NCBI RefSeq assembly: GCF_037975245.1
Contig: NC_092568.1
Coordinates: forward strand, 34,318,501-34,382,500
Direction: 5' to 3'
Length of the DNA stretch: 64,000 bases
Source: Apostichopus japonicus
Taxonomy: Eukaryota; Echinodermata; Holothuroidea; Aspidochirotida; Stichopodidae
Shown here: piece after piece, positions 33,601-64,000 of the stretch
Layout of the letters: each line of letters begins with the position of its first letter
How positions within the stretch are numbered: the stretch's first letter is position 1
Made by a program: the position numbers and the translations under genes
Notes under the pieces: model-generated
Seen by the model: the letters and a program-made list of their open reading frames with translations, nothing else
The model's database searches: none
Told to the model about the DNA's origin: nothing

Positions 33601-35180
33601 GTTAATGAGCATGGTAGAAGATCCTGCTAGGATCGAAGCGTTAGGCCAACTTACTTTTACACATTCTATTAAACAGGCTCTATAGTGGATAAGCAGTTTG
33701 CTAACAGTTTTATTTTATTTTGATTAAAAGGATAAAGTAAACGTTTATTACATTGATATTTTCATTCATCCTTTCCAGGACTGACCATGCATGCCACAAT
33801 ATTAGCTTACATGTTCAGCATTGTTGAGGGAGGCAAGATTACAGATCCACTAAGCCAGTCACAAGGAACAAAGACCAATGGACTGTATATCAAAGAGTTC
33901 ACAGGATCTCTGCTCAAAGCAGCATTCCCACATCTCTTGGAGTAAGTACCCATGTATCTAGAAAATCATCTCTGTCGACTAGCTGCTCCAGTAGTCTCAA
34001 AACCAGGGAGTCATTGTTTTCTACACTAAAGGCAGTATAATGTGTCTTGGAGCTACATTCTGAGCTTCTCTGTAAACAACTTTAAGACTTTAAAATAGGG
34101 GATTGACTGCTTCCACAAGAACAGTAGTCATTAATCCATGGGCTGCAAACATTCTCGTGTTTGCAAAAAAATGCTACACTTCTAACAGATTGCTGGAAGG
34201 CTTATGTAATACTGTGTATTCGGAAGTAGAATTTACCTTGTAATTTTTGACATGTTCTGATGTTACATGTAACACACATATCTGCTTTTATTTCAGTGCA
34301 CAGATTAAAGTGTTTGTGACAGGCCTGTTCAGTTTGAATCAAGATATTCCAGCCACAAAGGAGCACTTGAGGGACTTCCTAGTCCAGATCAAGGTGAGAT
34401 TCCCTTTTCGGAAAATGCAGAAATATTACACCTAGTTTCTTTAACATGCCTGCTCGTATGGAATTGGAATTACATTTTGGTATTTAGCTTCCTAAACTTT
34501 ATGTAAAGTTACTGGTAAATGTTGGTTGCCAATGGCTGTCAGTTTTACCATACCATGTTAGAGTCACTCCTATAAGATTGTAATTGATGAAATTTAAGAT
34601 GATATCCACCTCTTTTATCATTCACTTGGTTTTTGTTCTTCAAAGGAGAGTTACTTAGCCAAGAATTGATGATAATCATGATACCCATATGACTGCTCCT
34701 CCCACTCCCCACACCCAGTTTTGGTTGTATTAAATCACATCAGAAATTTGAGATTTAAAAATATTTTTAAGTTCACCTTCCTGTCCATCGTTTCAATTAT
34801 TGTTGTGGGATGTTATTTGTAAATAGTGTCAAACTTGTTCAAAAGTCAATTTAGGAAGCAAAAATTAAAAAATAAAAGAGAAGGTGAAAAAAAAATGGTT
34901 TAGATTGTAAAAGAATGTTTCCATGGGTGTGTAGCAGATGTCTGATGTCTTGATTCCCAGAAAAGAACTGTAAGTGAAATTTGAGTATGGGAATTTTCTG
35001 AAACTAACTTCTGCTTGGCTTTAATATTCACAGGAGGTTGCTGGAGATGATACCTCTGGTTTGTTTCTGGAAGAGAGAGAAGCAGCTCTTAAACAGGCAG
35101 AGGAGGAGAAGCACAAGGTACAGTTGTCAGTACCTGGTATCGTCAACCCTCACGACATCCCAGAGGAGATGGTCGATTAA
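18633..35180 (+). CDS. XPO1: Exportin-1 (CRM1), complete, 22 coding exons
   Basis: Nuclear export receptor of the importin-beta family. It binds leucine-rich export signals together with RanGTP and carries cargo through the nuclear pore. Coding exons: 18633-18758, 19578-19679, 20568-20702, 21251-21414, 21747-21861, 23525-23644, 24099-24227, 24711-24869, 25595-25795, 26570-26708, 27106-27209, 27983-28217, 28393-28556, 29076-29210, 29653-29757, 30390-30575, 31100-31222, 31789-32029, 32605-32739, 33779-33941, 34297-34393, 35034-35180. All introns are GT-AG and all phases agree. The total is 3225 nt, 1074 residues plus stop (human 1071), and similarity to human CRM1 is visible in every exon. Importin-beta N-domain about residues 47-113; HEAT-9 acidic loop ([19 protein letters not shown]) about 426-446; NES-groove cysteine Cys530 in [11 protein letters not shown]; end PEEMVD. 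The family start pattern [17 protein letters not shown] supports the ATG. The gene looks intact. Confidence 0.97.
28076..28078 (+). other. XPO1: Codon for the leptomycin-B-reactive cysteine of exportin-1 (Cys530)
   Basis: TGT at this position is codon 530 of the joined CDS and lies in [11 protein letters not shown], which aligns with human Cys528 in the NES-binding groove. In known CRM1 proteins this cysteine is alkylated by leptomycin B, and organisms with another residue here are resistant. The sequence predicts a sensitive protein. Confidence 0.9.
32919..33245 (+). repeat. AGGTCA-rich degenerate minisatellite in XPO1 intron 19
   Basis: Three modules starting GTCAAAGGTCATTT or similar and continuing with (A/T)CAACAGAGGTCA lie at about 32920, 33074 and 33212. 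The intervening sequence CTTGTAAACA...AACTCC is also shared. Similar AGGTCA minisatellites are common in marine invertebrate introns. The middle copy contains AGGTCAAAGGTCA (33072-33084). Confidence 0.6.
33490..33726. mobile_element. 237-bp insertion in XPO1 intron 19 with 13-bp target duplication
   Basis: AAAGGATAAAGTA occurs exactly at 33477-33489 and 33727-33739 and brackets the insert. The insert holds two inverted copies (about 33490-33534 minus, about 33619-33663 plus) of the hairpin repeat also seen at 12862-12935, each with the AGGCCAACTTACTTTTACAC-type tail facing outward. A duplication of 13 bp suits target-primed retrotransposition better than most DNA transposons. There is no coding capacity. 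It lies between exons 19 and 20 and leaves the splice sites intact. Confidence 0.65.
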
Positions 35181-36875: not shown

Positions 36876-37178
36876 ATGTCAAGTTTGCTACCTCTCTGCA
36901 AGAAACATGTTAGTTATGACTATTTATATCATTTTCACTGTACAACTTCAGAAGAAGTCATATTTTTTCTTGTAACTGGGAAAGAGGGTAACTTATTTAG
37001 CCGATTATGTATGCAGGAAGTGCCATATGTCAAGTTTGCTACCTTCCGCAAGAAACATGTTAGTTATGACTATTTATATCATTTTCACTGTACAACTTCA
37101 GAAGAAGTTATATTTTTTCTTGTAACTGGGAAAGAGGGTAACTTATTGAGACGTTAATGTATGAAGGAAGTGCCATAT
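36876..37178 (+). repeat. 151-bp tandem duplication downstream of XPO1
   Basis: Two nearly identical copies, 36876-37026 and 37027 to about 37178, share ATGTCAAGTTTGCTACC at the start and AAGAGGGTAACTTATT near the end. There is a one-base indel (CTCTCTGC versus CTTCCGC). Because of the indel one reading frame passes through both copies and repeats the same peptide, which explains the 139-codon ORF here without a gene. Confidence 0.85.
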
Positions 37179-38635: not shown

Positions 38636-39596
38636 ACCAAAGGACGCTACATTTATACGTGTACAGGCGGTGAAGGATAGTGATTGGTTGAATTGTTGCT
38701 GTCTAGTCGGGTCAAAATGTTAACGGAACTTTCCTCTTGGGCGTTATTTCCGCCACACTGTAGTGGTTCAATGTTGGGTCGTGGTATCAGCGGATTGTTA
38801 TAAATAGCTGTACAAACTAAAAATACAAATTTATTAACACCTGTAAAGCTTAACGGGGAATAACTTGGAGATTGAAAAAATTATAAAAAATACTCGCACA
38901 AAGGTGTGCTGAATACTAGTGGAATTATCTGCTAGCTAAAAATAGAATTTCACTTTATACCCAAATATTGTAGGTTCCTTGCATGAGAAAATGTGAATGC
39001 ATTGAATGGCAAGTTTTTAATCTGGTGCCAGTTTCACACCCAGCGTAAGTTATTTTGATAAATCAAGTATATAGCATACAAGTGGCAAGCTCTGATGTCA
39101 TCCCGTCGCCATAAATGTTTGTTCACGACACTGACACACCGCTCTGGATTGTTTTCATCAACATTCGTATGATTACTATATTTGCAACTTTCAAAACCTT
39201 AAATTTTACCTCAACTTCACCTATCCCATTTCTATATTTTGGCTATAGGCCTACTAGGTAAGAGTGTCAATTTATTCTGAAGATATTATGTTTGCTACTG
39301 AACATCAGGGCAGATATGTGTCACCAAACCGTTTCAAACCGTACGTACCGTACTCCGATCACCGCTGTAGCCTACAGCTTTTTATTTTCACTTTCAACTC
39401 TCAACCACTGATTAAATTATCACTTTAAGCAAAATAAATCCTGATTGAACCTTGACACAAAACTCAATCAACTTGATCCACCCTCATGCAACCCCAGTCC
39501 AATAACATACAGAAAATATTATTGATAATAAGGCATTTTTACCTCAACTTAACCAGTGACAGTAAAACTTGACACAAAATTCAAAATTTAGCAATA
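38636..39596. other. Intergenic, nothing recognisable
   Basis: AT-rich sequence with no supported coding region, RNA gene or clear repeat. Confidence 0.45.
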
Positions 39597-40136
39597 ATTA
39601 ATATTACGTAGTGTTCCTTGTTGCTGGTCCGGTCAAAACCAGTTCTCATCGGAAACTACGGTGGTCGATAAGTTCAATCCGGTTAAGCTGGTGTTTTCCA
39701 AACAGTCCTAACTGTGGTTCATATCGGCTTCCTATCTGCTTATATATAAAATGCCGTTGTATTTTGTACCGTTTTTCATTGCACGGCTATTATTTCTACA
39801 TCGTATCGTTCAACGGCTTGTAAATAGTACCGCGTATAATATTGTGTACTATTGCCTTTTATAAACTCTACACATTTTTCTTCAAACGTGGAGAGGGGGT
39901 CTGCATGAACCCACACTTTCAGCATTGCACACAAAAGCATTACCTCGGTTTTGCGTTTAGATCTTATTTCAGTCGAATATACCACACAATGCACTACGTT
40001 TCTCGTCTATGTTATTATTTTATTTTTCTTCTAGGGAAGAGCGCCAGACCTCAAACATAGGGTCGGCTTACACGGCTACACCCCGGATTTTGTAAAATCC
40101 TAGACCCGCCCTTGGGGGCAGAGGCGGTGTTCAACT
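39597..40136 (+). repeat. Segmental duplication, copy A
   Basis: The start (about 39605-39830) and end (40034-40133) of this copy match copy B at 40213-40563 at high identity. Shared pieces include TTCCTTGTTGCTGGTCCGGT, TTTTCCAAACAGTCCTAACT and TCGGCTTACACGGCTACACC. Copy A has an extra ~190 bp (about 39835-40025) that copy B lacks. No inverted ends were seen. Confidence 0.75.
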
Positions 40137-40212
40137 TCACACAAAGCAACACTTTCAAACTAATTAAAAATAAAAATTGTTAGCAAACATCTTATCTACT
40201 TGAGAGCCTGTG

Positions 40213-40565
40213 TAATTAAAATTACGAGTTCCTTGTTGCTGGTCCGGTCAGAACCAGTTATCGTCGGAAACTACGGTGGTCGATAAGTTCAATCCGATTG
40301 AGCTGATGTTTTCCAAACAGTCCTAACTGTGGTTCATATCGGCTTCGAATCTGCCTATATAATGCTATTGTATTTTGTATATTTTTTTTTATTACAAGGC
40401 TATTACTTCTACAGTATCGTTCAACGGTTTGTCAATCATGGCCGTGTATACTATTTTTCTTTTTTCTTCAAGGGGTGGGCGCCAGACCCCATACATGGGG
40501 TCGGCTTACACGGCTACACCCCGGATTTGTAAAACCCTAGACCCGCCCTTCGGGGTAGAGGCGAA
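40213..40565 (+). repeat. Segmental duplication, copy B
   Basis: Same order of conserved pieces as copy A in the same orientation, about 618 bp downstream at the left end and 440 bp at the right end because it lacks the internal ~190 bp. Scattered substitutions indicate an old duplication, or two insertions of one repeat family. Confidence 0.75.
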
Positions 40566-43746: not shown

Positions 43747-46700
43747 CAAGTCCATTAATACTAGTAGTAGTCGTCACGGCATTGTCAATGAACTTACCAT
43801 TGTAAACTAGATGTGCAGTACATATGCATGAAGGAGTTGGGTTGGGTTGGTTACATGTAAATATGAAGAAGCTAGGTCTTTTGCATCACTTTAACTTAGT
43901 TAAAGCACATAGGCTATATGACTGAGTATGACTCGTTTGTGATCGTATTCTGCTGTAACACTGTACGCACATACTGAGCACATAGTTTGTAATGGTCAGT
44001 CCAAATGACATGGCAACCGCTAAAGAACTTGATACCGTGCTAGTAGTACAAGCCTACCTAATATTAGGTGTAAAACAAAAGTACCCATTCAGTAGGCCTA
44101 ACAGTTTGTTAGGGAAGGGGACATATGCCACAGTTAAGTTTCCACTGTTACTTTCTCAAAAACTGTTTTGCGAAGAAAAACAAGAACAATATAGTTTCAA
44201 CGATGGGAATAGGTGCACTATATTTGTAATTGCACTTAGGCCTTGGTGTATTGTCAACATTTTTGTAGTTCAAGTTCATGCCTACATGAGAAATTTTGAA
44301 GATGGCATATTGATTGTAGTGGAATCTAGTGCCATTCCACCATATGTACATATGGTATATCGTTCCCCCATAGGTTTTGAGCCTTTCAGCCATGGCAGAA
44401 AGTACCGTTGGGGGAATAACAGTCCCCAATATAGTGCTGACACTGTTGATTTCATTAGCCGTGTACATATGGATTAACATCTATAGGCTAGCTCGCATTT
44501 CATGTAGAACATGTTGATGCAATGTGTAGATCCACTCAAGGTATTAGTACTGTAAATTGAAGTGCCTTTATATGTTTTTGACTATCATTTGTGCTCATAT
44601 GACAAATTAAATGCTTTTGCTATCGAGACTAAGCACAGTTTTTATGGTGGAATGTAAGGCTGTGGTTGCAGTTGGTTAGGTCTCTCTGCTTATTTTTCTA
44701 CAGTAATTTGTGTTGTCATTTTTTGTCCAATGAAACCTGTACAGTTCAAATTTCTGAAAAGAGAGTGACTTCTTTGCATTAGGACATAATGAATGGACCT
44801 GTATTCATTATTCTCATATTTTTAAAGATCTCATGGTTAATTTGTCAGGTGCCAGAAATGGTGTATTCTATCTGTATCCACATTTTTTTTCAGTTCAACT
44901 TTTGTTTCATATTTCTCTCATCTCACCTTGGTTAACACTTCAGGGCAGTTTGTATTTAAAGTAGATGTACAACTGTCTCTTCTTGATTACATTGATTTGG
45001 TTAACTCGCATGGCCAGGATATGAAAACCTAAAAGGTTGAGTGATGTTGAAAACTTGAGAATTCAGAAATCTAGAATTAATTGCTGTCACTGGGTAAAGT
45101 AATAACTTTGTTTATGTACTCTCCCATGAGAGGCTGTAGCTTAAGTGTTATTTGTCAGTTTTGTCTTTGTCCCCCCTGTACATGTTATTGCCCCCACCAT
45201 GCTTTGACCTGATTTAACTTTCTTTGACAGGAGTTGGTTCCAAAATTCCATTAAAATCATGACCTAAGCAAGACGAGATGTCCCTCATAATTCAACAAAT
45301 AATACATCATGGATACATAATGCACAGCACCCTTGTAAAAGCTGATGGTTCACCTTGAAGCACTAGAAGTCATTTGCTCTCCATGACCTAGCAAGCACTA
45401 ATCAGTGTTAATACCAGAGAAAAGCAAGATTGGGTGAAGTTATATGCAAGGAAATTTTACTCAGCGTGCAGTATGCCAACTTGGTATTTATGTGTAAGAA
45501 CGGCTCTCAACAGTGTTTGTTGTCACCCAAGACCTAAGAGAGGTTGTTTTTAATGGTAGGAACATTTTGGCAGTGGAACAGTAGCAATGCCTAAAGTCAC
45601 TACCCTTAGACGTAGTTCCAAATGTTCTTTAGTTTACTATGAAGTTCTCGTAATTTAAAATATGGAAGATGTAAACATGACACTTAAGATGTTGTTATTT
45701 TTTGAAGCATTGGGCAAAAACAGCACATGTGATGAGCCACAGTATTTGAGGTCCCCAAGGTTCACTTTTTTTTGGGGGGGGGATCTATGACTTTGTTTCA
45801 GTCGGAAAGGGAGTGTTGTTACTCAGCCTATAGCATCAGTGTACACATAGTACATGTTGAGCAACCATGTACTTGGGGTGATCTCTTTAACTTTTAAAAG
45901 CACATTTCTTAATTTCTAAATATTTTGTCTTTACATATCAGCACTGACAAATCGTTTGTTTATTTCACCACAACAGCCTATGCATTTGGGATAGAAAACA
46001 AGGTTTGTAACCTAAGAGTCTTCAAAGTGAAATTGTTCCGTACCTTGCCTTGGAAATCAATGCAGTAGGTCTTCATTTCATTCTCTTTTCTTCATTACCC
46101 CTGTGGATACATTCCTACCCTATTTCAAGCACAGCATACTAACATAGTTGTTACATTAAGTTATAATTTGCCGATAGTAACATGCCAGACGTCTGTGGAC
46201 ATTCAAAAATCTGGTTTCTTATTTCTCAGCATAAATGACTTTTGTATGGATATATACATGTACAATGCATGGCATGGCAACAATGTTATTTCCCTTGAGG
46301 AAATGGCTTAAGCCTTGTAACAATGTAAGATGATAGATAATTCTCATGTGTACTGCTCTATGTACAGTTCTGTCTAACTTAAGACCATTTTAACATAATA
46401 TGACAGTCTCTATACAACTCCCATTGAGATGCATACATTCCTCTTTGTTGCTGTGTTTTCTCTTTGTATACAGTATGCATCTATCAAGTTCTTGAAATGA
46501 ACATCTCCCAGCTCCAGAAGGAAGCCTAGCAACAAAGTAAAGTTGATAGTTTTCTCCACTGTAAAGCCTCCTTAGGTTGAGGTACCTTGTACTACTATAA
46601 ATGTCCTTTTTACTGACTTTCATACGGCCTGTCTTATTCCTTTCAAGGTAACTTCTGATTGATACAATATTCTAGTTTTATTTATGACAATACAGTACGT

Positions 46701-46750
46701 TTATGTCAGAAAAGCAATATCAAATGTTTTCTTTTCCTTCTTTTAAATGT
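43747..46750. other. Intergenic between transposon and satellite array
   Basis: A 161-codon ORF at 43992-44477 has no recognisable domain, and the opposite strand is open over much of the same stretch, so I do not call it. About 46495-46605 resembles, at roughly two-thirds identity, the part of the array unit at 48241-48345 (shared ACTGTAAAGCCTCC...TTGAGGTA), in the same orientation. Confidence 0.4.
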
Positions 46751-49260
46751 TGTATTTAACATCTAGTCTCGACTTGTAGTGACCATTTATACCTCAGTTG
46801 TAGGTAGCATATTGCTTTGGCCTTTTTGGGCCTTTTCTTCTCCCGATTTCTTCTCTTTGTATGTGTGTATTTAGAGAATACCGTACACTTAACCCATTAC
46901 AAAAGATAGAGGACACAACTTTCAGCTTGGCGACAGAACAGTACAACCAACAAGTTCTCCACCTCCCAGTCCACAATGACCTGTGATGAGGTAGAGGTAC
47001 AGGGTTAATTAAACCTTCATCTTTAAAATGACACAACACTCAAAACTTCTTGCGGTAAAACACAAACTACGGTGCAAAATGTGTAATGCTGATTAAGCTC
47101 ATTAACCATTATTTTTTGGGTTACAACTTTGAACATTAATATTGCTTCTGCTATTAAGTTTGTTCAGTTGAGGTGTTCAGAAAAAGTTGTTGAGTATTTG
47201 TGAGACAGCATGTTATGTCACTCTTTAAATATTATGAAAAGCTTTTAAAGATCAATTAGTTCCCAAATATAGGAAATGAATTGCCTACTTCACTTATTAC
47301 AAAGAATGAAATCACTATTTCTTGTTTGGTATATGTTGATGTAGGCTTGTTTTTTGTGTGTATTGCTTGCTCCCTTTTATTTTGTCTATAACCAGAGAAT
47401 TGGGAAATAGTTGATAACCAAGCAAGAAATCTGAAAGTGGCTAAAGTTAGAAAGCAGTCAAGCAAGTGGTCTCAGGAGGGTGGCGAAAGAAAACAAAGCA
47501 GTAGCAGGGATACCTCCTTACAGTGCTAAAAGTCCCAAGTTTTGGACCACAACGGTGGTGAAGATTGCCACTCGGACTGACGAAAGGTGTCACTCGGAAA
47601 ATGGGGGGAGGGCTTCCCGTGCTCCTTTGTATTCGGCAGATTGTCTCCAACAGGCAAATGATCTTTGCAGTAAAGATCATGTCGGAGAAAGGCGAATAGG
47701 TTTTCAAGCTATGAAAGAAGCTACAGATTGGTGTACTCCAGTGAGTAATGCCCATGCAGTGCGATGCAGACAGATTGCGAGTCAGGTTTCAAAATCCCTC
47801 TGATGACATGACCATGGTGGTGAGAAATAATCTGATTGTTCCTCCAAATTTGTAAGCGCTAAAGATATTTAGTATCCAGGCAAGTCATCCTTCACATTCC
47901 AGTATGTAGGTATGAAAAATGTATCTTGTATAATGTGCAGTGAAAGTGGCGTTACACTTCTGTGCAGGAAGTTTTCAACACGGTTGGCTATAAAAATTCT
48001 GATGTTCAAGGAAAAAATTTGTTTAGAAAAATAATATGCAACTCTTGGGGTACTACTACTATTTTATTTAAGGTTCCTATGAGTGTGAATCATATGAAAG
48101 GGAATTGCTGATAAGTTTTAAAATGTCCCTGTGGCCCATTGGCCATTTTCTCCCCATATTTTTTCTCTTTTGTGTATGTGCATCTACCAGGTTGGCAAAA
48201 GTTTCACAACAGCGTAGCTACCGGGAAGGAATCACAAAGTACTAAGCCCAGCTGCTGAAAGCAAAGCTGATAGTAGCAACTTCTGTTTTCTGTAAAACCT
48301 CCACATGTTGAGGTATTCTGTACTCCAATTTACCAGACATGTATATTTTCTTCATAGTGGTAAAATTCTCTATCAGTTTTACTTGTACTAAACACAGAAT
48401 CACATTTTGTTGGGATAAAAATCCATAGGGAAGGTTGTATATAGTGAAGAATCACAGATCCCCACTGTGCAAAAAAGGGGGAAAAAAGCTTATTTTATTC
48501 ACAAGGAAACATTGTTCAATGAGTACTAGTAGTCATAATCCAAATTATGAGTTACAGGAATTACATTTTGAAACTGTTGGTAGTCAGCTTGGCTGGCATA
48601 TGGTATTTCTATTTCTTCCTTTATTTGTGTATGAGCAGGATGAATAACATACCAGTCATGGCTTGAATTTCAACATTATTTCTGTGAAGTGGGTGCATTT
48701 TAGAAGACTCTAAGCTGGCTCCGGTTGATGATCAAGGGGTTACTACTTGCTAGTGGATTGAAATCTTTGTTACTTGAGTACCTTGGCCGCTAACAGCTCC
48801 CACATAATGTGCAGGAAATTATTTTGACTTGCTGCAACACGAAAAAGAGTGTTCAGGCAAAATGTGGTCAGATGTAGATCTATGCGGTCGGTTTGATTCA
48901 CACCCACTCGACTTAAGCAAAGGATTTGGAAAGGCTGGTAATAATACATCAGAAAAGTGGAAACAGTTGCAAATGGTGATCCAGAATTCGATGATATCAC
49001 AGTCCATAGTTAACTACTTGGGACCCGTCAAAGTATCTGGAAAAAGTGTTTCGATAAAGTGATGACGGTACAGACAATCTCAAAGCCTATACACAAGACC
49101 AGTAGGTCTTCAGGGACCAGGCAAGTTTATATCTCGGTGAAGTGTTAGTCTTGAAATCATTCTCAAGTGATAAAATTTGTAATATGTTGTATATCCCAAG
49201 TGAATTTATTGTGTTTGCTGCCAAATTTGAAAAGCACAGTTCAATTTTACCGGATTGCTA
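46751..49260 (+). repeat. Array unit 1 (edge copy, most diverged)
   Basis: 2510 bp. It carries many substitutions absent from later units, for example GTAAGCGCTAAAG where others have GTAAGKGCTGAAAG, and AGATCATGTCGGAG where others have AGATAATGTCAGAG. Its coding-like stretch is open at 47480-47803. It also keeps a 77-codon open stretch at 48829-49062 that later units have lost. Confidence 0.9.
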
Positions 49261-51559
49261 TGTATTTAACATCTAGTCCCGACTTGAAGTGACCATTTAT
49301 ACCTTAGTTGTAGGTAGCATATTGCTTTGGCCTTTTTGGGCCTTTTCTTCTCCCGATTTCTTCTCTTTGTATGTGTGTATTAAGAGAATACCGTACACTT
49401 AACCCATTACAAAAGATAGAGGACACAACTTTCAGCTTGGCGACAGAACAGTACAACCAACAAGTTCTCCACCTCCCAGTCCACAATGACCTGTGATGAG
49501 GTAGAGGTACAGGGTTAATTTAACCTTCATCTTTAAAATGACACAACACTCGCAACTTCTTGAGGTAAAACACAAACTACGGTGCAAAATGTGTAATGCT
49601 GATTAAGCTCATTAACCATTATTTTTTGGGTTAAAACTTTGAACATCAATATTTTTGTTGTACGTATTGCTTGCTCCCCTTTATTTTGTGTATAACCAGA
49701 GAATTGAGAAATAGTTGATAACCAAGCAAGAAATCTGAAAGTGGCTAAAGTTAGAAAGCAGTCAAGCAAGTGGTCTCAGGAGGGTGGCGAAAGAAAACAG
49801 AGATTGCAGTAGCAGGGATACCTCCTTACAGTGCTAAAAGTCCCAACTTTTGGACCACAACGGTGGTGAAGATTGTCACTCGGACTGACGAAAGGTGTCA
49901 CTCGGAAAATGGGGGGTGGGCTTCCCGTGCTCCTTTGTATTCGGCAGATTGTCTCCAACAGGCAAATGATCTTTGCAGTGAAGATAATGTCAGAGAAAGG
50001 CGAATAGGTTTTCAAGCTGTGAAAGAAGCTACAGATTGGTGTACTCCAGTGAGTAATGCCCATGCAGTGCGATGCAGACAGATTGCGAGTCAGGTTTCAA
50101 AATCCCTCTGATGACATGACCATGGTGGTGAGAAATAATCTGATTGTTCCTCCAAATTTGTAAGTGCTGAAAGATATTTTGTATCCCGGCAAGTCATCCT
50201 TCACATTCCAGTATGTAGGTATGAAAAATGTATCTTGTATTATGTGCAGTGAAAGTGGCCTTACACTTCTGTGCAGGAAGTTTTCACCCATGGTTGGCTT
50301 TAAAAATTCTGATGTTCAAGGAAAAAAATTGTTGAGAAAAATAAGTTGCAACTCTTGAGGTACTACTACTATTTAATTTATGGGCCCTATAATTGGGAAC
50401 CTTATGAAGGTGATAATGTTTAAAAATGTCCCTGTGGCCTATTGGCCATTTTCTCCCCATATTTTTCTCTTTTGTGTATGTGCATCTACCAGGTTGGCAA
50501 AAGTTTCACAACAGCCGCGCTACCAGGAAGGAATCACAAAGTAGTAAGCCCAGCTGCTGAAAGGCAAAGCTGATAGTAGCAACTTCTGTTTTCTGTAAAA
50601 CCTCCATATGTTGAGGTATCCTGTACTCCAATTTACCAGACATGTTTATTTTATTTCTAGTGGTAACTTCTATACCAATTTTACTTGAACTTGACACATA
50701 ATTACATTTTGTTTGGATGAAAATCCATAGGGAAGGTTGTATATAGTGAATAATCACAGATCCCACTGTGCAAAAAAGGAAGGGAAAAAAGCTTATTTTA
50801 TTCACAAGGAAACATTGTTCAATGAGCACTAGTAGTCATAATCTAAATTATGAGTTACAGGAATTACATTTTGAAACTGTTGGTAGTCAGCTTGGCTGGC
50901 ATATGGTATTTCTATTTCTTCCTTTATTTGTGTATGAGCAGGATGAATAACATACCAGTCATGGCTTGAATTTCAACATTATTTCTGTGAAGTGGGTGCA
51001 TTTTAGAAGACCCTAAGCTGGCTCCGGTTGATGATCAAGGGGTTACTACTTGCTAGTGGATTGAAATCTTTGTTACTTGAGTACCTTGGCCGCTAACAGC
51101 TCCCACACAATGTGCAGGAAATTATTTTGACTTGCTGCAACACGAAAAAAAGCGTTCAGGCAAAATGTGGTCAGATGGTCTATGTGGTCGGTTTGATGCA
51201 CACCTACTTGATGTAAGCAAAGGATTTTGAAAGGCTGGTAACAATACATCAGAAAAGTGGAAACAGTTGCAAATGGTGATCCAGAATTCGATGATATCAC
51301 AGTCCATAGTTAACTACTTGGGACCCGTCAAAGTATCTGGAAAAAGTGTTTTCATAAAGTGGTGACGGTACAGACAATCTCAAAGAGTATACACAAGACC
51401 AGTAGGTTCCAGGAACCAGGCAAGTTTATATCTCAGTGAAGTGTTTGTCATGAAAATATTCTCAAGTGATAAAACTTGTAACATGTTGAATATCCCAAGT
51501 GAATTTATCGTGTTTGCTGCCAAATTTGAAAAGCACAGTTTAATTTTACCGGATTGCTA
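49261..51559 (+). repeat. Array unit 2 (internal ~206-bp deletion)
   Basis: Only 2299 bp. About 206 bp present in all other units is missing at about 49652, where ACATCAATATTT runs directly into TGTTGTACGTATTGC. The remainder aligns end to end. It shares GCAAATGGTGATCC with unit 1 where units 3-6 have GGATTGGGTGATCC, so it is intermediate between the edge copy and the bulk. Confidence 0.9.
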
Positions 51560-54070
51560 TGTATTTAACATCTAGTCTCGACTTGTAGTGACCATTTATA
51601 CTATACCTCAGTTGTAGGTAGCATATTGCTTTGGCCTTTTTGGGCCTTTTCTTCTCCCGATTTCTTCTCTTTGTATGTGTGTATTTAGAGAATACCGTAC
51701 ACTTAACCCATTACAAAAGATAGAGGACACAACTTTCAGCTTGGCGACAGAACAGTACAACCAACAAGTTCTCCACCTCCCAGTCCACAATGACCTGTGA
51801 TGAGGTAGAGGTACATGGTTAATTTAACCTTCATCTTTAAAATGACACAACACTCGCAACTTCTTGAGGTAAAACACAAACGATGGTGCAAAATGTGTAA
51901 TGCTGATTAAGCTCATTAACCATTATTTTTTGGGTTAAAACTTGTAACATGATTATTGCTTCTGCTGTTAAGTTTGTTCAGTTGAGGTGTTCAGAAAAAG
52001 TAGTTGAGTATTTTTGAGACAGCATGTTATGTCTTTCTTTTAAATATTATGAAAAGCTTTTAAAGATCAATTAGTTCCCAAATATAGAAATAGAATTGCC
52101 TTCTTCACTTATTACAAAGAATGAAATGACAATTTTTTGTTTGGTATATGTTGATGTAGGCTTGTTTTTTGTGTGTATTGCTTGCTCCCCTTTATTTTGT
52201 GTATAACCAGAGAATTGAAAAATAGTTGATAACCAAGCAAGAAAGCTGAAAGTGGCTAAAGTTAGAAAGCAGTCAAGCAAACGGTCTCAGGAGGGTGGCG
52301 AAAGAAAACAGAGATAGCCAGTAGCAGGGATACCTCCTTACAGTGCTAAAAGTCCCAACTTTTGGATCATGACGGTGGTGAAGATTGTCACTCGGACTGA
52401 CGAAAGGTGTCACTCGGAAAATGGGGGGTGGGCTTCCCGTGCTCCTTTGTATTCGGCAGATTGTCTCCAACAGGCAAATGATCTTTGCAGTGAAGATAAT
52501 GTCAGAGAAAGGCGAATAGGTTTTCAAGCTGTGAAAGAAGCTACAGATTGGTGTACTCCAGTGAGTAATGCCCATGCAGTGCGATACAGACAGATTGCGA
52601 GTCAGGTTTCAAAATCCCTCTGATGACATGACCATGGTGGTGAGAAATAATCTGATTGTTCCTCCAAATTTGTAAGGGCTGAAAGATATTTTGTATCCCG
52701 GCAAGTCATCCTTCACATTCCAGTATGTAGGTATGAAAAATGTATCTTGTATTATGTGCAGTGAAAGTGGCCTTACACTTCTGTGCAGGAAGTTTTCAAC
52801 ATGGTTGGCTTTAAAAATTCTGATGTTCAAGGAAAAAAATTGTTTAGAAAAATAAGTTGCAACTCTTGAGGTACTACTACTATTTAATTTAAGTTCCCTA
52901 TAAGTGTGAACCTTATGAAGGTGATAATGTTTAAAAATGTCCCTGTGGCCTATTGGCCATTTTCTCCCCATATTTTTCTCTTTTGTGTATGTGCATCTAC
53001 CAGGTTGGCAAAAGTTTCACAACAGCCGCGCTACCAGGAAGGAATCACAAAGTAGTAAGCCCAGCTGCTGAAAGGCAAAGCTGATAGTAGCAACTTCTGT
53101 TTTCTGTAAAACCTCCATATGTTGAGGTATCCTGTACTCCAATTTACCAGACATGTTTATTTTATTTCTAGTGGTAACTTCTATACCAATTTTACTTGAA
53201 CTTGACACATAATTACATTTTGTTTGGATGAAAATCCATAGGGAAGGTTGTATATAGTGAATAATCACAGATCCCACTGTGCAAAAAAAGGAAGGGAAAA
53301 AGCTTATTTTATTCACAAGGAAACATGGTTCAATGAGCACTAGTAGTCATAATCTAAATTATGAGTTACAGGAATTGCATTTTGTTAGTGTTGGTAGTCA
53401 GCTTGGCTGGCATATGGTATTTCTATTTCTTCCTTTATTTGTGTATGAGCAGGATGAATAACATACCAGTCATGGCTTGAATTTCAACATTATTTCTGTG
53501 AAGTGGGTGCATTTTAGAAGACCCTAAGCTGGCTCCGGTTGATGATCAAGGGGTTACTACTTGCTAGTGGATTGAAATCTTTGTTACTTGAGTACCTTGG
53601 CCGCTAACAGCTCCCACATAATGTGCAGGAAATTATTTTGACTTGCTGCAACACGAAAAAAAGCGTTCAGGCAAAATGTGGTCAGATGGTCTATGTGGTC
53701 GGTTTGATGCACACCTACTTGATTTAAGCAAAGGATTTTGAAAGGCTGGTAACAATACATCAGAAAAGTGGAAACAGTTGGATTGGGTGATCCAGAATTC
53801 GATGATATCACAGTCCATAGTTAACTACTTGGGACCCGTCAAAGTATCTGGAAAAAGTGTTTTCATAAAGTGGTGACGGTACAGACAATCTCAAAGAGTA
53901 TACACAAGACCAGTAGGTTCCAGGAACCAGGCAAGTTTATATCTCAGTGAAGTGTTTGTCATGAAAATATTCTCAAGTGATAAAACTTGTAACATGTTGA
54001 ATATCCCAAGTGAATTTATCGTGTTTGCTGCCAAATTTGAAAAGCACAGTTTAATTTTACCGGATTGCTA
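51560..54070 (+). repeat. Array unit 3
   Basis: 2511 bp. One additional base (AGATAGCCAGTAGC, near 52318) shifts the frame at the start of the coding-like stretch, which is then open from 52369 to 52623. It shares AAGTTCCCTATAAGTGTG with units 5 and 6. Confidence 0.9.
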
Positions 54071-54083
54071 TGTATTTAACATC
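53934..54083 (+). pseudogene. Second coding-like stretch spanning the unit junction (units 3/4 shown)
   Basis: Fifty open codons read SLYLSEVFVMKIFSSDKTCN and later EFIVFAAKFEKHSLILPDCY, ending in TAG at 54084-54086. The same frame is open in the unit 1/2 junction copy despite several replacement substitutions. It crosses the point where the array starts (46751), so unit 1 carries only its last few codons on the left. No family recognised. It could be the tail of the same decayed gene as the stretch earlier in the unit. Confidence 0.25.
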
Positions 54084-56580
54084 TAGTCTCGACTTGTAGT
54101 GACCATTTATACTATACCTCAGTTGTAGGTAGCATATTGCTTTGGCCTTTTTGGGCCTTTTCTTCTCCCGATTTCTTCTCTTTGTATGTGTGTATTTAGA
54201 GAATACCGTACACTTAACCCATTACAAAAGATAGAGGACACAACTTTCAGCTTGGCGACAGAACAGTACAACCAACAAGTTCTCCACCTCCCAGTCCACA
54301 ATGACCTGTGATGAGGTAGAGGTACATGGTTAATTTAACCTTCATCTTTAAAATGACACAACACTCGCAACTTCTTGAGGTAAAACACAAACGATGGTGC
54401 AAAATGTGTAATGCTGATTAAGCTCATTAACCATTATTTTTTGGGTTAAAACTTGTAACATGATTATTGCTTCTGCTATTAAGTTTGTTCAGTTGAGGTG
54501 TTCAGAAAAAGTAGTTGAGTATTTTTGAGACAGCATGTTATGTCTTTCTTTTAAATATTATGAAAAGCTTTTAAAGATCAATTAGTTCCCAAATATAGGA
54601 AATGAATTGCCTTCTTCACTTATTACAAAGAATGAAATGACAATTTCTTGTTTGGTATATGTTGATGTAGGCTTGTTTTTTGTGTGTATTGCTTGCTCCC
54701 CTTTATTTTGTGTATACCCAGAGAATTGAAAAATAGTTGATAACCAAGCAAGAAAGCTGAAAGTGGCTAAAGTTAGAAAGCAGTCAAGCAAACGGTCTCA
54801 GGAGGGTTGCGAAAGAAAACAGAGATAGCAGTAGCAGGGATACCTCCTTACAGTGCTAAAAGTCCCAACTTTTGGATCATGACGGTGGTGAAGATTGTCA
54901 CTCAGACTGACGAAAGGTGTCACTCGGAAAATGGGGGGTGGGCTTCCCGTGCTCCTTTGTATTCGGCAGATTGTCTCCAACAGGCAAATGATCTTTGCAG
55001 TGAAGATAATGTCAGAGAAAGGCGAATAGGTTTTCAAGCTGTGAAAGAAGCTACAGATTGGTGTACTCCAGTGAGTAATGCCCATGCAGTGCGATGCAGA
55101 CAGATTGCGAGTCAGGTTTCAAAATCCCTCTGATGACATGACCATGGTGGTGAGAAATAATCTGATTGTTCCTCCAAATTTGTAAGTGCTGAAAGATATT
55201 TTGTATCCCGGCAAGTCATCCTTCACATTCCAGTATGTAGGTATGAAAAATGTATCTTGTATTATGTGCAGTGAAAGTGGCCTTACACTTCTGTGCAGGA
55301 AGTTTTCAACATGGTTGGCTTTAAAAATTCTGATGTTCAAGGAAAAAAGTTGTTGAGAAAAATAAGTTGCAACTCTTGAGGTACTACTACTATTTAATTT
55401 AAGGGCCCTATAAGTGGGAACCTTATGAAGGTGATAATGTTTAAAAATGTCCCTGTGGCCTATTGGCCATTTTCTCCCCATATTTTTCTCTTTTGTGTAT
55501 GTGCATCTACCAGGTTGGCAAAAGTTCACAACAGCCACGCTACCAGGAAGGAATCACAAAGTAGTAAGCCCAGCTGCTGAAAGGCAAAGCTGATAGTAGC
55601 AACTTCTGTTTTCTGTAAAACCTCCATATGTTGAGGTATCCTGTACTCCAATTTACCAGACATGTTTATTTTATTTCTAGTGGTAACTTCTATACCAATT
55701 TTACTTGTACTTGACACATAAATTACATTTTGTTTGGATGAAAATCCATAGGGAAGGTTGTATATAGTGAATAATCACAGATCCCACTGTGCAAAAAAGG
55801 AAGGGAAAAAAGCTTATTTTATTCACAAGGAAACATTGTTCAATGAGCACTAGTAGTCATAATCTAAATTATGAGTTACAGGAATTGCATTTTGTTAGTG
55901 TTGGTAGTCAGCTTGGCTGGCATATGGTATTTCTATTTCTTCCTTTATTTGTGTATGAGCAGGATGAATAACATACCAGTCATGGCTTGAATTTCAACAT
56001 TATTTCTGTGAAGTGGGTGCATTTTAGAAGACCCTAAGCTGGCTCCGGTTGATGATCAAGGGGTTACTACTTGCTAGTGGATTGAAATCTTTGTTACTTG
56101 AGTACCTTGGCCGCTAACAGCTCCCACATAATGTGCAGGAAATTATTTTGACTTGCTGCAACACGAAAAAAAGCGTTCAGGCAAAATGTGGTCAGATGGT
56201 CTATGTGGTCGGTTTGATGCACACCTACTTGATGTAAGCAAAGGATTTTGAAAGGCTGGTAACAATACATCAGAAAAGTGGAAACAGTTGGATTGGGTGA
56301 TCCAGAATTCGATGATATCACAGTCCATAGTTAACTACTTGGGACCCGTCATAGTATCTGGAAAAAGTGTTTTCATAAAGTGGTGACGGTACAGACAATC
56401 TCAAAGAGTATACACAAGACCAGTAGGTTCCAGGAACCAGGCAAGTTTATATCTCAGTGAAGTGTTTGTCATGAAAATATTCTCAAGTGATAAAACTTGT
56501 AACATGTTGAATATCCCAAGTGAATTTATCGTGTTTGCTGCCAAATTTGAAAAGCACAGTTTAATTTTACCGGATTGCTA
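54071..56580 (+). repeat. Array unit 4
   Basis: 2510 bp. Shares with unit 7, and not with units 3, 5 or 6, GTGTATACCCAGAGAATTG (54711), AAGGGCCCTATAAGTGGG and the one-base-shorter AAAAGTTCACAACAGCCACG. Private differences include CTCAGACTGA. Confidence 0.9.
54807..55353 (+). pseudogene. Coding-like stretch within the array unit (unit 4 shown), unidentified
   Basis: An open frame (54807-55133) reads IAVAGIPPYSAKSPNFW, later WASRAPLYSADCLQQANDLC, and ends near ATDWCTPV. It is open in all seven units (47480-47803, 49770-50111, 52369-52623, 57317-57643, 59827-60153, 62337-62663). In the next frame CDADRLRVRFQNPSDD and MTMVVRNNLIVPPNL follow (55090-55182). After a TAA, still in frame, come DILYPGKSSFTFQYVG and CIMCSESGLTLLCRKF (from 55186). 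Removing the 19 bases GTGAGTAATGCCCATGCAG (55071-55089), which begin GT and end AG, would join the first two frames, but 19 nt is too short for a normal animal intron. I do not recognise the family. A decayed gene fragment amplified with the satellite is the likeliest reading; chance openness is possible. Confidence 0.3.
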
Positions 56581-59090
56581 TGTATTTAACATCTAGTCTC
56601 GACTTGTAGTGACCATTTATACTATACCTCAGTTGTAGGTAGCATATTGCTTTGGCCTTTTTGGGCCTTTTCTTCTCCCGATTTCTTCTCTTTGTATGTG
56701 TGTATTTAGAGAATACCGTACACTTAACCCATTACAAAAGATAGAGGACACAACTTTCAGCTTGGCGACAGAACAGTACAACCAACAAGTTCTCCACCTC
56801 CCAGTCCACAATGACCTGTGATGAGGTAGAGGTACAGGGTTAATTTAACCTTCATCTTTAAAATGACACAACACTCGCAACTTCTTGAGGTAAAACACAA
56901 ACGATGGTGCAAAATGTGTAATGCTGATTAAGCTCATTAACCATTATTTTTTGGGTTAAAACTTGTAACATGATTATTGCTTCTGCTATTAAGTTTGTTC
57001 AGTTGAGGTGTTCAGAAAAAGTAGTTGAGTATTTTTGAGACAGCATGTTATGTCTTTCTTTTAAATATCATAAAAAGCTTTTAAAGATCAATTAGTTCCC
57101 AAATATAGGAAATGAATTGCCTTCTTTACTTATTACAAAGAATGAAATGACAATTTCTTGTTTGGTATATGTTGATGTAGGCTTGTTTTTTGTGTGTATT
57201 GCTTGCTCCCCTTTATTTTGTGTATAACCAGAGAATTGAAAAATAGTTGATAACCAAGCAAGAGAGCTGAAAGTGGCTAAAGTTAGAAAGCAGTCAAGCA
57301 AACGGTCTCAGTAGGGTTGCGAAAGAAAACAGAGATAGCAGTAGCAGGGATACCTCCTTACAGTGCTAAAAGTCCCAACTTTTGGATCATGACGGTGGTG
57401 AAGATTGTCACTCGGACTGACGAAAGGTGTCACTCGGAAAATGGGGGGTGGGCTTCCCGTGCTCCTTTGTATTCGGCAGATTGTCTCCAACAGGCAAATG
57501 ATCTTTGCAGTGAAGATAATGTCAGAGAAAGGCGAACAGGTTTTCAAGCTGTGAAAGAAGCTACAGATTGGTGTACTCCAGTGAGTAATGCCCATGCAGT
57601 GCGATGCAGACAGATTGCGAGTCAGGTTTCAAAATCCCTCTGATGACATGACCATGGTGGTGAGAAATAATCTGATTGTTCCTCCAAATTTGTAAGGGCT
57701 GAAAGATATTTTGTATCCCGGCAAGTCATCCTTCACATTCCAGTATGTAGGTATGAAAAATGTATCTTGTATTATGTGCAGTGAAAGTGGCCTTACACTT
57801 CTGTGCAGGAAGTTTTCAACATGGTTGGCTTTAAAAATTCTGATGTTCAAGGAAAAAAATTGTTTAGAAAAATAAGTTGCAACTCTTGAGGTACTACTAC
57901 TATTTAATTTAAGTTCCCTATAAGTGTGAACCTTATGAAGGTGATAATGTTTAAAAATGTCCCTGTGGCCTATTGGCCATTTTCTCCCCATATTTTTCTC
58001 TTTTGTGTATGTGCATCTACCAGGTTGGCAAAAGTTTCACAACAGCCGCGCTACCAGGAAGGAATCACAAAGTAGTAAGCCCAGCTGCTGAAAGGCAAAG
58101 CTGATAGTAGCAACTTCTGTTTTCTGTAAAACCTCCATATGTTGAGGTATCCTGTACTCCAATTTACCAGACATGTTTATTTTATTTCTAGTGGTAACTT
58201 CTATACCAATTTTACTTGAACTTGACACATAATTACATTTTGTTTGGATGAAAATCCATAGGGAAGGTTGTATATAGTGAATAATCACAGATCCCACTGT
58301 GCAAAAAAGGAAGGGAAAAAAGCTTATTTTATTCACAAGGAAACATTGGTCAATGAGCACTAGTAGTCATAATCTAAATTATGAGTTACAGGAATTGCAT
58401 TTTGTTAGTGTTGGTAGTCAGCTTGGCTGGCATATGGTATTTCTATTTCTTCCTTTATTTGTGTATGAGCAGGATGAATAACATACCAGTCATGGCTTGA
58501 ATTTCAACATTATTTCTGTGAAGTGGGTGCATTTTAGAAGACCCTAAGCTGGCTCCGGTTGATGATCAAGGGGTTACTACTTGCTAGTGGATTGAAATCT
58601 TTGTTACTTGAGTACCTTGGCCGCTAACAGCTCCCACATAATGTGCAGGAAATTATTTTGACTTGCTGCAACACGAAAAAAAGCGTTCAGGCAAAATGTG
58701 GTCAGATGGTCTATGTGGTCGGTTTGATGCACACCTACTTGATTTAAGCAAAGGATTTTGAAAGGCTGGTAACAATACATCAGAAAAGTGGAAACAGTTG
58801 GATTGGGTGATCCAGAATTCGATGATATCACAGTCCATAGTTAACTACTTGGGACCCGTCAAAGTATCTGGAAAAAGTGTTTTCATAAAGTGGTGACGGT
58901 ACAGACAATCTCAAAGAGTATACACAAGACCAGTAGGTTCCAGGAACCAGGCAAGTTTATATCTCAGTGAAGTGTTTGTAATGAAAATATTCTCAAGTGA
59001 TAAAACTTGTAACATGTTGAATATCCCAAGTGAATTTATCGTGTTTGCTGCCAAATTTGAAAAGCACAGTTTAATTTTACCGGATTGCTA
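56581..59090 (+). repeat. Array unit 5
   Basis: 2510 bp and almost identical to unit 6. Both share AATATCATAAAAAGC where units 3, 4 and 7 have AATATTATGAAAAGC, and both read GGCGAACAGG in the coding-like stretch. Confidence 0.9.
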
Positions 59091-61600
59091 TGTATTTAAC
59101 ATCTAGTCACGACTTGTAATGACCATTTATACTATACCTCAGTTGTAGGTAGCATATTGCTTTGGCCTTTTTGGGCCTTTTCTTCTCCCGATTTCTTCTC
59201 TTTGTATGTGTGTATTTAGAGAATACCGTACACTTAACTCATTACAAAAGATAGAGGACACAACTTTCAGCTTGGCGACAGAACAGTACAACCAACAAGT
59301 TCTCCACCTCCCAGTCCACAATGACCTGTGATGAGGTAGAGGTACATGGTTAATTTAACCTTCATCTTTAAAATGACACAACACTCGCAACTTCTTGAGG
59401 TAAAACACAAACGATGGTGCAAAATGTGTAATGCTGATTAAGCTCATTAACCATTATTTTTTGGGTTAAAACTTGTAACATGTTTATTGCTTCTGCTATT
59501 AAGTTTGTTCAGTTGAAGTGTTCAGAAAAAGTAGTTGAGTATTTTTGAGACAGCATGTTATGTCTTTCTTTTAAATATCATAAAAAGCTTTTAAAGATCA
59601 ATTAGTTCCCAAATATAGGAAATGAATTGCCTTCTTTACTTATTACAAAGAATGAAATGACAATTTCTTGTTTGGTATATGTTGATGTAGGCTTGTTTTT
59701 TGTGTGTATTGCTTGCTCCCCTTTATTTTGTGTATAACCAGAGAATTGAAAAATAGTTGATAACCAAGCAAGAAAGCTGAAAGTGGCTAAAGTTAGAAAG
59801 CAGTCAAGCAAACGGTCTCAGGAGGGTTGCGAAAGAAAACAGAGATAGCAGTAGCAGGGATACCTCCTTACAGTGCTAAAAGTCCCAACTTTTGGATCAT
59901 GACGGTGGTGAAGATTGTCACTCGGACTGACGAAAGGTGTCACTCGGAAAATGGGGGGTGGGCTTCCCGTGCTCCTTTGTATTCGGCAGATTGTCTCCAA
60001 CAGGCAAATGATCTTTGCAGTGAAGATAATGTCAGAGAAAGGCGAACAGGTTTTCAAGCTGTGAAAGAAGCTACAGATTGGTGTACTCCAGTGAGTAATG
60101 CCCATGCAGTGCGATGCAGACAGATTGCGAGTCAGGTTTCAAAATCCCTCTGATGACATGACCATGGTGGTGAGAAATAATCTGATTGTTCCTCCAAATT
60201 TGTAAGGGCTGAAAGATATTTTGTATCCCGGCAAGTCATCCTTCACATTCCAGTATGTAGGTATGAAAAATGTATCTTGTATTATGTGCAGTGAAAGTGG
60301 CCTTACACTTCTGTGCAGGAAGTTTTCAACATGGTTGGCTTTAAAAATTCTGATGTTCAAGGAAAAAAATTGTTTAGAAAAATAAGTTGCAACTCTTGAG
60401 GTACTACTACTATTTAATTTAAGTTCCCTATAAGTGTGAACCTTATGAAGGTGATAATGTTTAAAAATGTCCCTGTGGCCTATTGGCCATTTTCTCCCCA
60501 TATTTTTCTCTTTTGTGTATGTGCATCTACCAGGTTGGCAAAAGTTTCACAACAGCCGCGCTACCAGGAAGGAATCACAAAGTAGTAAGCCCAGCTGCTG
60601 AAAGGCAAAGCTGATAGTAGCAACTTCTGTTTTCTGTAAAACCTCCATATGTTGAGGTATCCTGTACTCCAATTTACCAGACATGTTTATTTTATTTCTA
60701 GTGGTAACTTCTATACCAATTTTACTTGAACTTGACACATAATTACATTTTGTTTGGATGAAAATCCATAGGGAAGGTTGTATATAGTGAATAATCACAG
60801 ATCCCACTGTGCAAAAAAGGAAGGGAAAAAAGCTTATTTTATTCACAAGGAAACATTGGTCAATGAGCACTAGTAGTCATAATCTAAATTATGAGTTACA
60901 GGAATTGCATTTTGTTAGTGTTGGTAGTCAGCTTGGCTGGCATATGGTATTTCTATTTCTTCCTTTATTTGTGTATGAGCAGGATGAATAACATACCAGT
61001 CATGGCTTGAATTTCAACATTATTTCTGTGAAGTGGGTGCATTTTAGAAGACCCTAAGCTGGCTCCGGTTGATGATCAAGGGGTTACTACTTGCTAGTGG
61101 ATTGAAATCTTTGTTACTTGAGTACCTTGGCCGCTAACAGCTCCCACATAATGTGCAGGAAATTATTTTGACTTGCTGCAACACGAAAAAAAGCGTTCAG
61201 GCAAAATGTGGTCAGATGGTCTATGTGGTCGGTTTGATGCACACCTACTTGATTTAAGCAAAGGATTTTGAAAGGCTGGTAACAATACATCAGAAAAGTG
61301 GAAACAGTTGGATTGGGTGATCCAGAATTCGATGATATCACAGTCCATAGTTAACTACTTGGGACCCGTCAAAGTATCTGGAAAAAGTGTTTTCATAAAG
61401 TGGTGACGGTACAGACAATCTCAAAGAGTATACACAAGACCAGTAGGTTCCAGGAACCAGGCAAGTTTATATCTCAGTGAAGTGTTTGTCATGAAAATAT
61501 TCTCAAGTGATAAAACTTGTAACATGTTGAATATCCCAAGTGAATTTATCGTGTTTGCTGCCAAATTTGAAAAGCACAGTTTAATTTTACCGGATTGCTA
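59091..61600 (+). repeat. Array unit 6
   Basis: 2510 bp, near-identical to unit 5. Private changes include TCTAGTCACGACTTGTAATG at the start and CACTTAACTCATTAC near 59230. Confidence 0.9.
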
Positions 61601-64000
61601 TGTATTTAACATCTAGTCTCGACTTGTAGTGACCATTTATACTATACCTCAGTTGTAGGTAGCATATTGCTTTGGCCTTTTTGGGCCTTTTCTTCTCCCG
61701 ATTTCTTCTCTTTGTATGTGTGTATTTAGAGAATACCGTACACTTAACCCATTACAAAAGATAGAGGACACAACTTTCAGCTTGGCGACAGAACAGTACA
61801 ACCAACAAGTTCTCCACCTCCCAGTCCACAATGACCTGTGATGAGGTAGAGGTACATGGTTAATTTAACCTTCATCTTTAAAATGACACAACACTCGCAA
61901 CTTCTTGAGGTAAAACACAAACGATGGTGCAAAATGTGTAATGCTGATTAAGCTCATTAACCATTATTTTTTGGGTTAAAACTTGTAACATGATAATTGC
62001 TTCTGCTATTAAGTTTGTTCAGTTGAGGTGTTCAGAAAAAGTAGTTGAGTATTTTTGAGACAGCATGTTATGTCTTTCTTTTAAATATTATGAAAAGCTT
62101 TTAAAGATCAATTAGTTCCCAAATATAGGAAATGAATTGCCTTCTTCACTTATTACAAAGAATGAAATGACAATTTCTTGTTTGGTATATGTTGATGTAG
62201 GCTTGTTTTTTGTGTGTATTGCTTGCTCCCCTTTATTTTGTGTATACCCAGAGAATTGAAAAATAGTTGATAACCAAGCAAGAAAGCTGAAAGTGGCTAA
62301 AGTTAGAAAGCAGTCAAGCAAACGGTCTCAGGAGGGTTGCGAAAGAAAACAGAGATAGCAGTAGCAGGGATACCTCCTTACAGTGCTAAAAGTCCCAACT
62401 TTTGGATCATGACGGTGGTGAAGATTGTCACTCGGACTGACGAAAGGTGTCACTCGGAAAATGGGGGGTGGGCTTCCCGTGCTCCTTTGTATTCGGCAGA
62501 TTGTCTCCAACAGGCAAATGATCTTTGCAGTGAAGATAATGTCAGAGAAAGGCGAACAGGTTTTCAAGCTGTGAAAGAAGCTACAGATTGGTGTACTCCA
62601 GTGAGTAATGCCCATGCAGTGCGATGCAGACAGATTGCGAGTCAGGTTTCAAAATCCCTCTGATGACATGACCATGGTGGTGAGAAATAATCTGATTGTT
62701 CCTCCAAATTTGTAAGGGCTGAAAGATATTTTGTATCCCGGCAAGTCATCCTTCACATTCCAGTATGTAGGTATGAAAAATGTATCTTGTATTATGTGCA
62801 GTGAAAGTGGCCTTACACTTCTGTGCAGGAAGTTTTCAACATGGTTGGCTTTAAAAATTCTGATGTTCAAGGAAAAAAGTTGTTGAGAAAAATAAGTTGC
62901 AACTCTTGAGGTACTACTACTATTTAATTTAAGGGCCCTATAAGTGGGAACCTTATGAAGGTGATAATGTTTAAAAATGTCCCTGTGGCCTATTGGCCAT
63001 TTTCTCCCCATATTTTTCTCTTTTGTGTATGTGCATCTACCAGGTTGGCAAAAGTTCACAACAGCCACGCTACCAGGAAGGAATCACAAAGTAGTAAGCC
63101 CAGCTGCTGAAAGGCAAAGCTGATAGTAGCAACTTCTGTTTTCTGTAAAACCTCCATATGTTGAGGTATCCTGTACTCCAATTTACCAGACATGTTTATT
63201 TTATTTCTAGTGGTAACTTCTATACCAATTTTACTTGTACTTGACACATAAATTACATTTTGTTTGGATGAAAATCCATAGGGAAGGTTGTATATAGTGA
63301 ATAATCACAGATCCCACTGTGCAAAAAAGGAAGGGAAAAAAGCTTATTTTATTCACAAGGAAACATTGTTCAATGAGCACTAGTAGTCATAATCTAAATT
63401 ATGAGTTACAGGAATTGCATTTTGTTAGTGTTGGTAGTCAGCTTGGCTGGCATATGGTATTTCTATTTCTTCCTTTATTTGTGTATGAGCAGGATGAATA
63501 ACATACCAGTCATGGCTTGAATTTCAACATTATTTCTGTGAAGTGGGTGCATTTTAGAAGACCCTAAGCTGGCTCCGGTTGATGATCAAGGGGTTACTAC
63601 TTGCTAGTGGATTGAAATCTTTGTTACTTGAGTACCTTGGCCGCTAACAGCTCCCACATAATGTGCAGGAAATTATTTTGACTTGCTGCAACACGAAAAA
63701 AAGCGTTCAGGCAAAATGTGGTCAGATGGTCTATGTGGTCGGTTTGATGCACACCTACTTGATTTAAGCAAAGGATTTTGAAAGGCTGGTAACAATACAT
63801 CAGAAAAGTGGAAACAGTTGGATTGGTGATCCAGAATTCGATGATATCACAGTCCATAGCTAACTACTTGGGACCCGTCAAAGTATCTGGAAAAAGTGTT
63901 TTCATAAAGTGGTGACGGTACAGACAATCTCAAAGAGTATACACAAGACCAGTAGGTTCCAGGAACCAGGCAAGTTTATATCTCAGTGAAGTGTTTGTCA
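61601..64000 (+). repeat. Array unit 7 (cut by window edge)
   Basis: 2400 bp present. A mosaic: it matches unit 4 at several diagnostic sites (TATACCCAGAG at 62241, AAGGGCCC near 62933) and units 5/6 at others (GGCGAACAGG, GTAAGGGCTG). It has a one-base deletion at GGATTGGTGATCC near 63823. Confidence 0.9.

Follow-up and report, generated by a model that had tools for sequence, protein, structure and literature searches.

The window, by which we mean the whole 64,000-nucleotide stretch of DNA analysed (C8:34318501-34382500), contains the left part of a tandem array of 2510-bp units that sits between two convergent genes, exportin-1 on the left and a hydantoinase/S-Me-THD-like gene on the right. 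We interpret this array, with a probability of roughly 0.7, as a locus-specific, non-coding macrosatellite, on the basis of one assembly. Units longer than 1 kb follow each other head-to-tail over 29.3 kb, with no foreign DNA between the copies. The array starts sharply at window position 46751 and, with a further 20 kb of the chromosome included, ends at C8:34394588 (extended coordinate 76088; extended coordinates carry on the numbering of the window, the next piece running from 64001). It totals 29,338 bp, or ~11.7 unit copies, and comprises ten full-length copies (c02-c11), one copy with a 207-bp deletion (c01), and partial end copies on the left (c00, 1038 bp) and on the right (c12, 897 bp). 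The part within the window (46751-64000; this feature and those that follow carry no strand) consists of the partial left-edge copy c00 (46751-47788, unit positions 1463-2510), the second copy c01 (47789-50096, ~5% diverged from the core), five full-length copies, c02-c06 (50097-62648), and the beginning of c07 (62649-64000), which is full length in the genome.

When one unit was compared with the window by BLAST, the copies fell head-to-tail from 46751 up to the window end. Identity was 94.9% over 1038 bp in the first partial copy and 93.6 and 96.6% on either side of the 207-bp deletion in the second; the later copies in the window measure 2510-2512 bp and are 98.6-99.6% identical to the reference unit. 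An initial annotation, made from the letters of this DNA, had described a tandem array with a 2510-bp period, an abrupt edge, and a continuation past the window, and all three descriptions hold: the period is recovered by BLAST, the left edge is sharp at 46751, and the array continues to C8:34394588. Both edges are in fact sharp, the left beginning at unit position 1463 and the right ending at 897, and near-identity to the unit is lost immediately beyond either of them. The unit has a G+C content of ~38%. Chance cannot account for ~99% identity along 2.5 kb, and the array is confirmed as real.

The copies differ from each other in an ordered way. Pairwise identity among the core copies c02-c11 is 98.4-99.6%, and c00 and c01 share ~95-96% identity with the core copies and 97.1% with each other. 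The two outer core copies carry 16 and 15 private substitutions, and the eight inner ones carry 0, 0, 3, 4, 4, 4, 5, and 5. Differences between copies grow with their distance in the array (Spearman 0.34 over 45 pairs, Mantel p 0.019), and all four combinations of variants occur in 118 of 253 pairs of shared sites, the closest pair being 132 columns apart. This variation fits unequal crossing over together with gene conversion. The edge gradient, the distance effect, and the four-combination sites show the homogenisation by unequal exchange that characterises macrosatellites. We infer that exchange in the germ line caused this pattern. A 2510-bp segment of the DNA that separates XPO1 from the hydantoinase-like gene would have been duplicated head-to-tail, after which misaligned exchange (unequal crossing over and gene conversion) may have altered the copy number and held the inner copies alike; the ends of the array would exchange less and so drift. 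Copy c01 also contains patches of low divergence (e.g., alignment columns 800-1063 with one substitution). In 100-column bins (n = 23), the patches do not track variability within the core (Spearman 0.20, p 0.36), and we therefore claim neither constraint nor gene conversion for them.

The same variation bears on the possibility that the assembler multiplied a single copy. At 29.3 kb the array exceeds the mean HiFi read length (14.7 kb) of the likely source assembly, which the available portion of its report describes as a HiFi-based Apostichopus japonicus assembly of 671.64 Mb in 34 scaffolds and 23 chromosomes with a G+C content of 38.6% (PMC10344927). An assembler error should not produce an edge-to-centre gradient together with reassorted variants, which argues against such an artefact, as do the private variants in the copies, the diverged edges, and the count of zero N within the array region; we regard an artefact as extremely improbable. 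Because two of the inner copies lack private substitutions, we are less certain of how many copies there are than that the array exists.

Both flanks contain diverged pieces of the unit. In the left flank, a relative at 46458-46599 (+ strand) matches unit alignment columns 368-536, with nhmmer E-values of 7.7e-9 for the unit profile and 4e-10 for the module profile. The piece in the right flank, at extended 76160-76237, is weaker (E 0.0022 for the unit profile and 4e-5 for the module profile). The repeat is therefore older than its present uniform core. The initial annotation had considered a recent amplification; the core is indeed recently homogenised, and the age of the repeat as a whole is where that proposal falls short.

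Near copies of the unit are confined to this one locus. We searched 671,581,487 bases in 35 contigs with five query pieces that together cover approximately the whole unit (82-382, 412-982, 942-1522, 1502-2182, and 2182 to just beyond the junction). Every piece matched 12 places, all inside the array (in one query, one copy was split by its deletion), so that the five pieces place the near copies at a single locus in 671.6 Mb, as expected of a macrosatellite. As a control for the search, a dispersed palindromic repeat at 33486-33667 gave 626 candidates, 40 of which were scored, which shows that 12 is no upper limit of the method. This control sequence is an imperfect palindrome of ~180 bp, 73% self-complementary, and a member of a dispersed family with up to 97% identity over ~128 bp among the 40 scored of 626 candidates. 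A query of left-flank DNA returned only its self-match and missed the array despite the diverged unit relative in that flank, and distant unit relatives elsewhere may therefore go undetected.

Transposons can seed tandem arrays, and this is the one point in favour of a mobile element arranged in tandem, which the initial annotation had listed as a possibility. Near copies elsewhere in the 671.6 Mb are absent (distant ones would be missed by this search), the frames searched contain no transposase or polymerase family at cut-off, and the two edges of the array have no flanking sequence in common. Neither dispersed copies nor transposition genes, the marks of a tandem transposon, were thus found by searches that distant or non-autonomous families may escape, and we consider this origin very improbable.

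The genes on either side are recognisable. Four + strand frames match CRM1/Xpo1 Pfam families, and one of them matches Exportin-1 in the PDB (E 4.2e-49); they span 21170-32070, the extent given here to the exportin-1 (XPO1/CRM1) gene from the four exon frames tested. Further XPO1 exons, recognised by eye, presumably extend leftward to ~18.6 kb. The right-hand gene has three minus-strand frames with matches, to S-Me-THD_C at extended 91.2 kb, to S-Me-THD_N at 97.0 kb, and to Hydantoinase_A at 102.6 kb. Minus-strand frames with a repeated proline-rich motif and elevated G+C (0.476 across the 2 kb that begin at 94001) occupy extended 93724-94881, which is probably a minisatellite within the hydantoinase-like gene. 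The interval from XPO1 to the array holds direct duplications at 36876-37178 and 39595-40563, one of 153 bp with 95% identity and longer ones with 85-86%.

Whether the unit encodes a protein is a separate matter, which the initial annotation had raised from a + strand frame that stays open in every copy. Within the window this is correct: the frame crosses the unit junctions with 122, 118, 101, 118, 118, 118, and 118 codons, open in seven of seven cases (e.g., 57287-57640, 118 codons, with no sign of constraint). It does not hold for the whole array, in which the frame has 118 codons in nine of 12 copies, 122 and 101 (cut short by a TAG) in one copy each, and 79 in the last, where it is broken by a 2-bp deletion. 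A minus-strand frame (e.g., 55122-55553, 144 codons) has 135-144 codons in ten of 12 copies; the two leftmost copies have 31 and 72. In the + frame, we counted 0.5 silent changes (61.7 sites) and 12.5 replacement changes (220.3 sites), using 94 codons from 11 of 12 copies with the frameshifted copy dropped. There is no sign of purifying selection, and the changes are too few to argue for positive selection. The corresponding counts for the minus frame are 3.2 silent and 10.8 replacement changes on 43.7 and 163.3 sites (last 69 codons, 11 of 12 copies, c01 dropped).

No Pfam family matched at cut-off in ten unit frames or in the three frames tried first, and the weak lines to EURL, Y1_Tnp, CdsD_PD1, GPR180, and Peptidase_S7 fell below the cut-offs and were taken as chance. 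The two longest unit frames (+ and minus) had no PDB match at E 10, the + frame had no relative elsewhere in the genome at E <= 1, and a search of phage DNA and one scan of viral contigs with the + frame returned no relative. Among 500 shuffles of the unit, 27 had at least 118 codons on the + strand, 98 reached 118 codons on either strand, and 21 reached 144. A length of 118 codons on both strands at once occurred in only one. The codon-usage score of the + frame (z 0.99) lies within the range of intergenic ORFs. The minus frame scored z 2.13, higher than any of the 78 control ORFs, whose maximum was 1.98. An unrelated ORF in the left flank (46069-46308) scored 2.18, and three XPO1 exons, which belonged to the training set, scored 2.7-5.2. 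The unit segment bearing the + frame has a G+C content of 0.48, above most of the unit.

These results can be set against a tandem family of small genes, or its remains, amplified from a gene fragment. All but one of the 12 copies have a + frame of 101 codons or more, the segment with this frame is G+C-richer than most of the unit, the frames of the two strands are jointly long, and the codon score of the minus frame exceeds the 78 controls. The substitution counts in the + frame and in part of the minus frame speak against such a family, as do the breakage of the + frame in one copy and the shortening of the minus frame in two, the lack of a Pfam, PDB, or viral relative or a + frame relative in the genome, and the ordinary + frame codon score, and we consider it improbable. 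Purifying selection in each unit and a recognisable protein family, which would mark a tandem protein-gene array, were both absent from the results. The open frames are weak evidence of a gene, and a conserved gene in the unit is not supported. The protein-profile search and the comparison of silent and replacement changes, both proposed in the initial annotation, gave no support to its coding interpretation, nor did the PDB search and the codon usage of the + frame. Its suggestion of a satellite born from a gene fragment fares better: a fossil exon or coding past of the unit is possible because of the joint frame length and the minus-frame codon score. The macrosatellite itself, we infer, has no protein product.

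Known non-coding genes were likewise not detected. Rfam had nothing at gathering score across the window and only one chance-level line in the unit at E <= 1 (E 0.74), and a tRNA scan with bacterial settings found none, in agreement with the earlier statement that no rRNA, snRNA, or tRNA gene is recognisable. A known RNA family (rRNA, snRNA, or tRNA) of the kind that defines an RNA gene array was thus not found in the unit. Among six stretches folded on one or both strands, the best hairpin had a z of -1.23, and a scan for C/D snoRNA boxes yielded zero candidates. Acceptor-like, T-rich stretches before AG occur at unit positions 395, 844, 1591, and 2113, and we considered whether the units are repeated exons. 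With splice scoring matrices, two of the stretches reached no more than 1.7 and 2.9 bits, the remaining two fell outside the eight best, and this reading was dropped because of the low scores. The stretches are alike in pairs ~1.2-1.3 kb apart (395/1591, z 9.2; 844/2113, z 5.4; each reached in none of 300 simple shuffles), which suggests that the 2510-bp unit may itself be an old doubled unit. The two unit halves align barely above shuffles (a score of 52, the best of 60 shuffles being 50), and self-comparison of the unit by BLAST gave no internal repeat below E 0.09.

The CpG content of the region offers a lead towards transcription of the array. In 2-kb steps, CpG observed/expected is 0.17-0.36 at 18-38 kb, across XPO1 and past its last tested exon, rises to 0.75-0.98 at 38-44 kb, and is 0.25-0.40 from 44 kb through the array (to 76 kb). 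Within this stretch, the ~2.5 kb of flank to the left of the uniform array (44001-46750, no strand) are as CpG-depleted as the array is. The ratio is then 0.58-0.92 at 76-90 kb and 0.31-0.48 in the right-hand gene. Available parts of a study of the crown-of-thorns seastar report methylation mainly in gene bodies and slightly, significantly above background in intergenic repeats (11.8 versus 10%), the authors still counting repeats as a methylation target (PMC12550476). Exons and introns are reported to carry methylated sites in A. japonicus, in the part of the source consulted (PMC8027599). The CpG depletion of the array resembles that of the neighbouring gene bodies, and the array may therefore lie in a transcribed unit.

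Under this interpretation, the array would be the germ-line transcribed, methylated body of a putative unannotated transcript of ~32 kb (~44-76.5 kb), either a non-coding RNA or a repeat-filled intron. In its non-coding form, the transcript would consist almost wholly of one tandem 2.5-kb module in the gap between convergent genes, with exchange between copies keeping the modules alike. The low CpG between two higher stretches, its recurrence in both neighbouring genes, and the mainly genic methylation with near-background intergenic repeats in the available seastar data (PMC12550476) are consistent with it. Against it, CpG is as low as in the array in 16 of 50 2-kb control windows drawn from ten sites along C8, the homogenised array amounts to approximately one observation, and the splice-like signals in the unit are weak. 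The region at 8001-10000 also has a low CpG ratio (0.31), and five of its several minus-strand frames were tested and had no Pfam family at cut-off. We consider the transcript, in either form, unlikely and put it forward tentatively. It shares tandem exchange with the macrosatellite interpretation and differs from it in germ-line transcription and methylation.

As it stands, the array is an ordinary kind of repeat. It is also a compact, gapless echinoderm array beside a conserved gene, where the age of the copies, the decay at the edges, and exchange are directly readable. Copy-number variation is a hallmark of macrosatellites, and if copy number varies among animals, the array would serve as a ready marker. 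Should the CpG signal reflect transcription, the array would be a large unannotated RNA locus. In the literature on sea cucumber satellites and macrosatellites, no title on this locus appeared among the top matches listed, which is not meant as proof of absence.

Several known systems resemble the array. Arrays of rRNA, snRNA, and other RNA genes are likewise made of long, homogenised tandem units; unlike them, the window has no Rfam family at gathering score. The human macrosatellite DXZ4, as described in the available text, has uninterrupted units of ~3 kb at one locus and is not obviously protein coding (PMC3218863). DXZ4 is, however, GC-rich, X-linked, and CTCF-binding, whereas the sea cucumber unit has ~38% G+C and a CTCF-like core motif is not above chance in the window (17 matches versus 21.3 expected). 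A survey of the human genome, in the portion available, lists 96 locus-specific tandem arrays with units >2 kb, which share with the present array the unit length, the local confinement, and a presumed spread via unequal crossing over; 53 of the 96 hold genes or repeated exons and many others hold transposon pieces, neither of which was found here (PMC2588610). With these 96 human arrays and DXZ4 on record, the kind of repeat is known, and the sea cucumber array is best read as a known kind of repeat in a new place.
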